NCBI GenBank assembly: GCA_026989495.1
Contig: JALSJE010000125.1
Location: forward strand, 1-45,750
DNA: 45,750 nt
Source of the DNA: Gammaproteobacteria bacterium
Lineage (GTDB): Bacteria; Pseudomonadota; Gammaproteobacteria; S144-34
Direction of reading: 5' to 3'
In this document: in pieces, positions 2,329 through 45,706 of the stretch
Numbering within the stretch: position 1 is the stretch's first letter
Layout: each line of letters begins with the position of its first letter
The notes under the pieces: generated by a model
Database searches by the model: none
What the model was told of the DNA's origin: nothing
What the model saw: only the letters and a program-made list of their open reading frames with translations
Translations under genes and position numbers: made by a program

Positions 2329-2334
2329 CCATCG

Positions 2335-2495
2335 AAAGGTCTGAAAAATTCGATCTTTCAGACCTTTCCCGCGGCCAGGGACGGCCGCGGGAGAGCTCAT
2401 GCACAGGGAAGTGCATGACGACCCCAGGAAAATCCGAATGGCCGCAAAGCACCTCAGCGCTGATCGATCCGCGCAGCGGATTGATCTGAGTTTCC
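2335..2495 (+). repeat. Dispersed multi-hairpin palindromic repeat, copy 1
   Basis: This copy lies between the convergent GT2 and flippase genes. Stem-loops in order: AAAGGTCTGAAA/TTTCAGACCTTT (2335-2367, 12-bp stem); CCCGCGGCC/GGCCGCGGG (2368-2391, 9 bp); CATGCAC/GTGCATG (2398-2417, 7 bp); ATCGATCCGC/GCGGATTGAT (2463-2485). It ends in GAGTTTCC. The same order recurs at 15528-15691 (reversed) and 45533-45706. This copy is the most diverged in the segment between the third and fourth stems. With its paired stems between two gene ends it may also stop transcription, although no T-run follows. Confidence 0.85.
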
Positions 2496-15527: not shown

Positions 15528-15691
15528 GAAACGCTGATCAATCCGCTGCGCGGATCGATCAGCGCGATAGTGCTTTCGCGGTCCATTTCGATTTTTCGCG
15601 TGTCGTCATGCACTTCCCTGTGCATGGGCCGTCCCGCGGCCGTCCGTGGCCGTGGGGAAGGTCTGAAAAATCGCGATTTTTCAGACCTTCC
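15528..15691 (-). repeat. Dispersed multi-hairpin palindromic repeat, copy 2 (secA leader)
   Basis: The repeat is in reverse orientation, ending 21 nt before the secA start codon. In secA transcription order: a perfect 36-bp palindrome at 15656-15691 (each arm GGAAGGTCTGAAAAATCG or its complement); GGCC-rich stem 15633-15656 with one G-T/A-C position; CATGCAC/GTGCATG at 15607-15626; a short CGCGA/TCGCG stem at 15563-15580; and CTGATCAATCCGC/GCGGATCGATCAG at 15534-15562. The segment around the third stem is identical over 25 nt to the other two copies. It fills nearly all of the gap between the M23 gene and secA. Confidence 0.88.
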
Positions 15692-15785: not shown

Positions 15786-16718
15786 CTAGCGCCGGGCGGT
15801 ACGGATATAGCGCAGCGGGTTGACGACGCGTCCGCGGTGGAGAACCTCGAAGTGCACGTGCGGGCCGGTGGAGCGGCCCGTGCTGCCCATGAGGGCCACG
15901 GTCTGGCCCTTCTTGACGCGCTCGCCCACCCGCACCAGGTTGCGCAGGTTGTGGGCGTAACGGGTGACGTAGCCGTCGCCGTGGTCGATCTCCACCATGA
16001 GTCCGTAGCCGTAGCGCTCGCCCGACCAGGTGACGATCCCGCTCGCCACCGCCACCACGGGCGAGCCGAGCTTGCCGGCGAAATCCACGCCGTGGTGGTA
16101 CTCGCGCTTGCCCGTGAAGGGATCGGTGCGGCGCCCGAAGTAGGAGGAGATCCAGCCCCAGCGCACGGGCCGCCCCGCCGGCGCCGATTCGCGCCGCAGG
16201 CGCCGCTCGAGCAGGAGGTCCTCCAGCACGGCGAGCTGGCGGGTACGGTCCTCGATCTGGCGCTCCAGCCTGTCGAGGGCGGCCAGCAGCTCCGGGGCGG
16301 CCTGGCCCTCCTCGGCGGCCGGGCCCGCCCCAGGGCCGCCCTGGGCGGGGGGCTGGCTGAAGTCGAACTCGCCGCGGTCGAGCTCGGCCATCTCGGTCAG
16401 GCGCCGCCCGAGGGCGTCGAGCCGCATGACGTGGGCCTGCATCTGGCCGAGCCGCAGGGCCAGCGCATCCAGCTCGGCGCGCGTGCGCGCCCGCAGGGCC
16501 TGGAGCGCGCGGTCCTGCTCGGCGAGGCGCTGGGCCCAGCGCTCGGCCACGGCGGCCGGCAGGGTGCCCGAGCGGGCCAACCCCAGCCGGTAGCCCGCGT
16601 AGAGCAGGCCGCCGGCGAGCGCCGCCACCACGGCGAGCGCGGCCGCCCACACCCGGGGCTGGGTGAGGTCCAGGCATGCGCGCGGCCCGTGCCGCTTTGT
16701 CAGCAGGATCAGGTTCAT
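15786..16718 (-). CDS. M23-family (LytM) peptidoglycan endopeptidase
   Basis: The 310-residue protein has a short cytoplasmic N-terminus, one membrane span (about residues 23-46), a coiled-coil periplasmic stretch to about 170, and a C-terminal LytM domain. The zinc ligands expected for an active enzyme are present: the H and D in YHHGVDFAG and the HVHFE motif near the end. Such enzymes cut peptidoglycan cross-links or act as anchored regulators of amidases. A similar M23 gene stands between lpxC/ftsZ and secA in several gammaproteobacteria. It is divergent from dciA by 34 bp and upstream of secA on the same strand. Active-site completeness argues against a purely regulatory EnvC-type role. 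Confidence 0.88.
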   Translation of the reverse strand: MNLILLTKRHGPRACLDLTQPRVWAAALAVVAALAGGLLYAGYRLGLARSGTLPAAVAERWAQRLAEQDRALQALRARTRAELDALALRLGQMQAHVMRLDALGRRLTEMAELDRGEFDFSQPPAQGGPGAGPAAEEGQAAPELLAALDRLERQIEDRTRQLAVLEDLLLERRLRRESAPAGRPVRWGWISSYFGRRTDPFTGKREYHHGVDFAGKLGSPVVAVASGIVTWSGERYGYGLMVEIDHGDGYVTRYAHNLRNLVRVGERVKKGQTVALMGSTGRSTGPHVHFEVLHRGRVVNPLRYIRTARR

Positions 16719-16752
16719 CTATGCTGCCTGCGGTCTTCCCGGAGCATCTCCC

Positions 16753-36737: not shown

Positions 36738-37110
36738 CGGCGCGAGCCGGCCTGTAAGCCGGGTTCTGTTCCCCGCCGCGGGGGCGGGGCGGCAGCCATT
36801 CATCTGGGACGTGCGTCGCCGCACGCCTCTAGCGACCTACCCGGGAGCCGTGCGGGCCACACGATCGCTCCCCTATTCGGTCTTGCTCCGGGTGGGGTTT
36901 GCCGTGCCGCGGATGTCGCCACCCGCGCGGTGCGCTCTTACCGCACCGTTTCACCCTTGCCTGTGCCCCGGAGGGGCCATCGGCGGTCTGTTCTCTGTGG
37001 CACTTTCCGTGGGCTCGCGCCCCCCAGGCGTTACCTGGCACCCTGCCCTGCGGAGCCCGGACTTTCCTCCCCGCGCGCGAGGCGCGGAGCGGCTGCCCGG
37101 CCGGCTCGCC
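36738..37110 (-). ncRNA. rnpB: RNase P RNA (bacterial type A)
   Basis: The catalytic RNA of RNase P, which removes 5' leaders from tRNA precursors. On the minus strand the conserved blocks appear in order: GGGGAGGAAAGTCCGGGCTC (37052-37072), the region CAGGTAACGCC, ACAGAGAACAGACCGCCGA, AAGGGTGAAACGGTGCGG and TAAGAGCGCACC, GGAGCAAGACCGAATAGGGG, AGATGAATGGC, and ACAGAACCCGGCTTA near the 3' end. The 5' end (GGGCGAGCCGGCC) pairs with the 3' segment GGCCGGCTCGC, forming P1. Ends are estimated from promoter, pairing and terminator. The length, about 373 nt, matches the usual 370-380. Confidence 0.96.
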
Positions 37111-45532: not shown

Positions 45533-45706
45533 GGAAACTCTGATGGAAGCTCTGAAAAATCCGGTTTTTCAGGGCTCCCCGCGGCCATGGACGGCCGCGG
45601 GACGGCCCATGCACAGGGAAGTGCATGACGACACGCGAAAAATCGAAAGGGACCGCGAAGCACTATCGCGCTGATCGATCCGCGCAGCGGATTGGTCAGA
45701 GTTTCC
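45533..45706 (+). repeat. Dispersed multi-hairpin palindromic repeat, copy 3, with terminal inverted repeats
   Basis: This copy is bounded by GGAAACTCTGA (45533-45543) and TCAGAGTTTCC (45696-45706), a perfect 11-bp inverted pair. Inside are the same stem-loops as in the other copies: GAAGCTCTGAAAAA/TTTTTCAGGGCTCC (45545-45578), CCGCGGCC/GGCCGCGG (45579-45601), CATGCAC/GTGCATG (45608-45627), CGCGA/TCGCG, and the GATCGATCCGC stem (45672-45695). It lies inside transposase coding sequence. No direct target duplication is obvious. Confidence 0.87.

Follow-up and report, generated by a model that had tools for sequence, protein, structure and literature searches.

The stretch of DNA analysed here (the window, 45,750 nucleotides) carries three dispersed copies of a palindromic element which, once aligned, all show the same order of stems: stem 1, formed by GGAAGGTCTGAAAAAT/ATTTTTCAGACCTTCC, stem 2, formed by CCGCGGCC/GGCCGCGG, and stem 3, formed by CATGCAC/GTGCATG, followed by a linker, by stem 4 (GATCGATCCGC/GCGGATTGATC) and by the end GAGTTTCC (see Table 1). 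The presence of the three copies, their fixed series of stems and the identity of the 25 nt around stem 3 (CATGCACAGGGAAGTGCATGACGAC) had been described in a previous reading of the letters alone (the sequence-only reading) and are borne out by the alignment; the boundaries proposed there are corrected to those of Table 1, in particular for copy 3, whose start had been placed at 45533, the first base of an extra end repeat lying outside the copy. Copy 1 separates a glycosyltransferase gene, ending at 2328, from a polysaccharide-export-like gene of opposite orientation (both identified by Pfam), and is flanked by CATC and GATA, which do not form an intact target duplication; indeed, an intact 4-bp duplication is found at none of the three copies of the window. 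No family of Rfam 15 matches the element at its gathering score, the best sub-threshold matches at copy 2 having an E-value of about 3; the sole Rfam match in the window is the bacterial class A RNase P RNA (RF00010, 301 bits), at 36739-37108 on the minus strand.

Table 1. Copies of the element, their parts and associated sites; positions refer to the window, with the exception of the last row, which refers to other loci of the same genome.
Feature	Position	Strand	Remarks
Element copy 1	2334..2495	+	162 bp; convergent gap
Element copy 2	15528..15691	-	164 bp; leader directly upstream of secA (start codon 15506)
Stem 3 of copy 2, CATGCACAGGGAAGTGCATG	15607..15626	-	Segment with the strongest conservation in the family
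Stem 1 of copy 2	15656..15691	-	Includes the left end GGAAGGTCTGA; covarying among family members
Unoccupied site, single AGAT	16703..16728	-	Sister S144_34 has a copy between two AGAT there
12-nt stutter GGAAACTCTGAT	45533..45544	+	Additional element end adjoining copy 3
Element copy 3	45545..45706	+	162 bp
IS1111-like junctions	L024 start, L105 near 195, L107 (-) near 410, L125 near 102, L227 near 102		Contigs C42, C60, C69, C94 and C99, respectively

The genome to which the window belongs is a gammaproteobacterial MAG of 2.54 Mb in 143 contigs, and the search of the whole genome and of its relatives, which the sequence-only reading had proposed, revealed an abundant family. A 20-nt core is found at 118 sites of this genome at up to 3 mismatches, 74 of which are exact, against no match for the reversed control pattern, so that the repeat family cannot be attributed to chance. 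A profile search over 1.73 Mb (1.69 Mb of which readable, 18 small contigs being masked) yielded about 101 near-full copies together with 24 partial and 8 short ones (32 fragments), making up about 0.7% of the genome; since this 1.73 Mb holds 74 exact cores, nearly all the copies of the genome are covered. Two sister MAGs of the same genus, Gammaproteobacteria bacterium S144_34 and S012_21, carry core sites as well, 38 in one and 35 in the other, while 140 other genomes of the class returned four single two-mismatch matches and no real family. Among the matches listed in a scan of named genomes, those in S144_34 and S012_21 are accompanied by isolated core-like matches and by one full copy with a stuttered left end (L093:1994-2174), lying on a contig whose MAG bears the label Alphaproteobacteria; this contig is probably misbinned rather than true to its host, horizontal transfer being the alternative. 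The distribution, as read from these genomes, suggests that the family is confined to one gammaproteobacterial genus, nothing convincing having been found elsewhere among the genomes scanned.

The sequence-only reading rightly recognised that the copies form a dispersed family whose stem-loops follow one another in a fixed order, and missed its mobility, to which the ends of the element, the target duplications and the empty sites bear witness. The copies run from GGAANNYCTGA to TCAGNNTTTCC, the terminal inverted repeat being short and imperfect. With the ends fixed at GGAA...TTCC, exact 4-bp direct repeats flank 35 of 68 copies, compared to a mean of 0.94 and a maximum of 5 in 1000 trials with shuffled pairings, and in 13 more copies the 4-bp repeat has a single mismatch; flanking repeats of 2, 3 and 5-8 bp remain at background (for 2 bp, 7/68 observed and 4.1 expected). 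The duplicated 4-mers are varied and follow no strong consensus, TGAA occurring three times, GCGC and GAGA twice each and the rest once. Comparison of orthologous loci reveals the corresponding empty sites: L150 reads AACC-TTGC-element-TTGC-AAATCC where L079 reads AACCTTGCAAATCC, equally clean cases are provided by ACCA (L082/L111) and CTAA (L060/L145), and in L047 a copy lies between two AGAT at the site which in the window shows a single AGAT (Table 1). Copy 2 is likewise missing upstream of secA in the two sister species, where this gene shows 90% identity; for copy 1, the flanking gene has no clear orthologue in the two sisters. These empty orthologous sites, that of copy 2 among them, indicate that insertion continued after the separation of the species.

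The element is thus short, present in high copy number and devoid of a transposase gene or of a conserved reading frame, and it displays terminal inverted repeats, a target duplication of fixed length and presence/absence polymorphism at orthologous sites, that is, the properties by which a miniature transposable element (MITE) is recognised; we therefore regard it, with high confidence, as a non-autonomous transposable element, a bacterial MITE of about 163 bp which multiplied within one gammaproteobacterial genus. A coding function was considered and discarded: in 62 of 78 own-genome copies an ORF starting at the second ATG remains open as far as the end of the element, but it keeps no constant phase with stem 4, the three possible frames accounting for 48/32/14 cases. 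A role as intrinsic terminator was also rejected, inspection by eye revealing no U-run downstream of any of the stems on the sense strand.

Some copies are flanked by extra end pieces of 12 or 20 nt (8+4 or 16+4 bases), as exemplified by ATCAGAGTTTCC after a right end, and in 4 of 9 stuttered cases the 4-bp duplication is found again beyond the stutter. The simplest reading of these structures would be that the end of one copy received a second copy, one of the two bodies being lost afterwards by recombination between them. Solo palindromes and internally deleted derivatives are also present, and the hairpins may persist or move alone; in the sister MAG S144_34 (L057:1-75), for example, the loop of a larger palindrome contains a lone stem-1 palindrome with AATT on either side, and further solo stems occur in L114, L145, L185 and L247. 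An IS1111-like sequence adjoins stem 1 at five places of the own genome (Table 1), the junction falling each time on the same base (...GGCGTCCATACCA/TCTGAAAAAT..., the slash marking the junction), as though this stem served as its target. Its ORF begins MREVSVIGLDLAKQLFQLHGVDAHGRVVLRR and is 58% identical over 31 residues to an own-genome PF01548 (IS110) protein; one side of the insertion is seen, the other junction not being found and the body of the IS being unassembled. Known targets of IS1111 members include attC sites and REP palindromes (PMC11187229).

As to the position of the insertions, none of the 101 own-genome copies lies inside a called gene (genes having been called by a simple codon-usage procedure that marked 85% of the sequence as coding), and in the sisters 1 of 36 copies overlaps one; 23 own-genome copies are too near a sequence end for their gap to be classified. 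Where the two flanking genes point the same way, the plus strand of the element runs along with them in a ratio of 37:14 in the own genome and of 18:3 in the sisters (55:17 combined, p=8e-6), and the bias of the sisters amounts to a nearly independent replication, because the insertions compared are mostly lineage-specific. The bias may arise because antisense insertions are more harmful, or because insertion itself is biased. In convergent and divergent gaps the element lies on the strand of the majority of the genes of the contig in 15 cases vs 11, numbers too small to judge an effect of the replication strand.

Conservation of the fold was assessed on 118 copies of the genus by means of RNAalifold, which recovered the four stems, and of Python shuffles in which shared ancestry remains. 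In stem 1, 135 cells are changed on both sides, compared to 49 in the shuffles (maximum 60), and in stem 4 the corresponding values are 28 and 9.7 (maximum 16); variation is scarce in stems 2 and 3, which are therefore neutral with respect to covariation. The compensation in stem 1 noted by the sequence-only reading is real, if partly of the wobble type, the pairing GCTCTG/CAGGGC of copy 3 containing one T-G pair; across the family this stem occurs as 15 distinct perfect 8-bp arm pairs, in addition to mosaic arms. The consensus of the own genome differs from that of the sisters at 10 of 44 linker positions, at none of stem 2 and at one loop base of stem 3, and within the own genome the copies differ pairwise by 22% on average in the linker, compared to 2.4% in stem 3.

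A different picture emerges from the changes private to one copy (n=84), taken as a proxy for mutation after insertion. They are spread evenly over the segments of the element, with 4.5 per 1000 sites in stem 3 and 3.9 in the linker (Fisher p=0.83), and 43 of the 62 which fall in stems break the pair, a few being already changed on both sides; the covariation of the stems is found among variants common to many copies. Since private changes are equally frequent in stem and linker and mostly break the pair, conservation belongs to the copies that spread and not to each resident. The comparison of copies suggests that the fold is kept in the source copies, or restored by palindrome correction, rather than defended copy by copy, and, the private changes being few (84), weak constraint may still act at a minority of loci. 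The proposal that selection acts on the folded form accordingly holds at most for source copies; at the level of single copies, the uncompensated stem changes that the sequence-only reading had named as evidence against it do occur.

It seems unlikely, on these grounds, that the element is kept mainly as RNA, its sense hairpins controlling the processing or stability of the mRNA from 5' and 3' UTRs and its fold being selected locus by locus. Such a role would agree with the covariation of stems 1 and 4, the strong conservation of stem 3 among copies, the sense-strand bias, the location of copy 2 in the secA leader, the prevalence on the plus strand of G-T over A-C mismatches (113 vs 53, largely at one shared position) and the processing of MITE transcripts by RNase III or RNase E that is on record (PMC10969869); it is hardly reconciled with the distribution and the effect on pairing of the private changes, or with insertions that mostly differ between the species compared, and it would in any case stand beside the established mobility of the element rather than compete with it. 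A tentative alternative, somewhat more plausible though still doubtful, is that the compensated changes are a mutational by-product, the arms of a long palindrome correcting each other by template switching during replication with no need of selection on the fold. The many perfect arm pairs of stem 1 alongside mosaic arms, and the few private changes that are already two-sided, are what such a process would leave behind; most private changes, however, are uncorrected, which would make correction slow or restricted to source copies, and selection at the source level explains the same pattern.

The element, interpreted as a MITE, was also compared with known families, and appears to be a new and undescribed GC-rich one, distinct from ERIC, Correia, RUP and REP. 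The statement that no named family has this layout is upheld by the lack of matches in Rfam, in plasmid and phage collections and in a text search for the core; a literature search on the core sequence, the MAG names and combinations of IS5 with MITE found nothing useful. The length of 162-164 bp is comparable to that of ERIC, as had been claimed. ERIC elements, of about 127 bp, generate a TA duplication, as do Correia elements and RUP, a target duplication that the present element does not share. ERIC resembles it in size, copy number (30 to 711 per genome; PMC10969869), intergenic location, palindromic structure and insertion near gene ends, and differs from it in the layout of the stems and in the lack of sequence similarity in the searches made, besides the 4-bp duplications of the element. 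The Correia elements of Neisseria are MITEs of comparable size and copy number (over 120; PMC10969869), with hairpin ends and located in UTRs, but with different ends and in a different class of host. The transcripts of both Correia and ERIC have a reported role in mRNA processing or stability. QMITE2 of Coxiella burnetii, another gammaproteobacterial MITE, is found mostly in 3' UTRs and its transcript is predicted to form a stable stem-loop (PMC10969869); its layout is unrelated, and its direct repeats are of 7-9 bp (PMC10969869) rather than 4 bp.

REP sequences associated with RAYT are, like the element, short intergenic palindromes in high copy, and one Y1_Tnp gene is present in the own genome; nevertheless, it is highly improbable that the element is a REP/BIME-type palindrome moved by this Y1 transposase. 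The palindromes around the RAYT locus belong to a different family (GCCGGCAGGATGCCGGCCCCAC), both sister genomes carry the element with no Y1 match, and the element duplicates its target, which REP sequences are not known to do. The locus itself (L159; own contig C114, 393-647) consists of a Y1/RAYT-type gene amid these second, unrelated palindromes, GCCGGCAGGATGCCGGCCCCAC and GGCGCGGCTTCCAGCCGCG.

A further term of comparison is IS5 of E. coli, whose end GGAAGGTGCGAATAAG matches the GGAAGGTCTGAAAAAT of the element at 12 of 16 positions, a resemblance limited to short ends. Members of the IS5 group make 4-bp duplications, in agreement with the present element, whereas the preference of IS5 for YTAR is not reflected in its varied 4-mers; moreover, the element contains no transposase, and the own-genome sequence searched yielded no IS5-type gene having these ends. 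The ends of the element, located in the outer arm of hairpin 1 and in that of hairpin 4, would be recognised by a DDE transposase acting in trans, most probably an IS5-like one (the family being a guess), which would cut the target with a 4-bp stagger and insert the element. Only the source copies that spread would retain hairpins 2 and 3: either these hairpins are required for mobilisation, or their presence makes copies transcribed in the sense direction less harmful to the host. In hairpins 1 and 4, compensated changes would arise in the source lineages, by selection for pairing or by arm-to-arm palindrome correction, and after insertion a copy appears to drift free of constraint. It is improbable that hairpins 2 and 3 are obligatory to a mobilisation which reads the hairpin DNA or its RNA in the absence of a known autonomous partner, the orientation bias then reflecting coupling to transcription.

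An end-pair scan of the readable own-genome sequence (1.69 of 2.54 Mb, with repeats poorly assembled) recognised no autonomous transposon with the ends of the element, and such a partner may be extinct, unread or unassembled. Candidate partners were discarded on account of their ends: the sole own-genome protein of PF01609/PF05598 is IS1182-like and has different ends, and an IS5-like element of S144_34 (L155, contig C192) has ends AGAAGCTATCTCAAAAAT, only loosely similar to those of the MITE; PF13359 and PF13586 have no match in the own genome. The IS1182-like element (L154, own contig C47) encodes a 443-aa DDE protein and appears to interrupt another transposase-like sequence.

Compensated stem changes within a repeat family should be read with caution, as they do not by themselves prove that each copy is a functional RNA. 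The family offers unusually clear data, with about 100 copies, readable 4-bp duplications, empty sites in the sisters and an orientation bias in both own and sister genomes, and it sets conservation in the source copies against drift after insertion.
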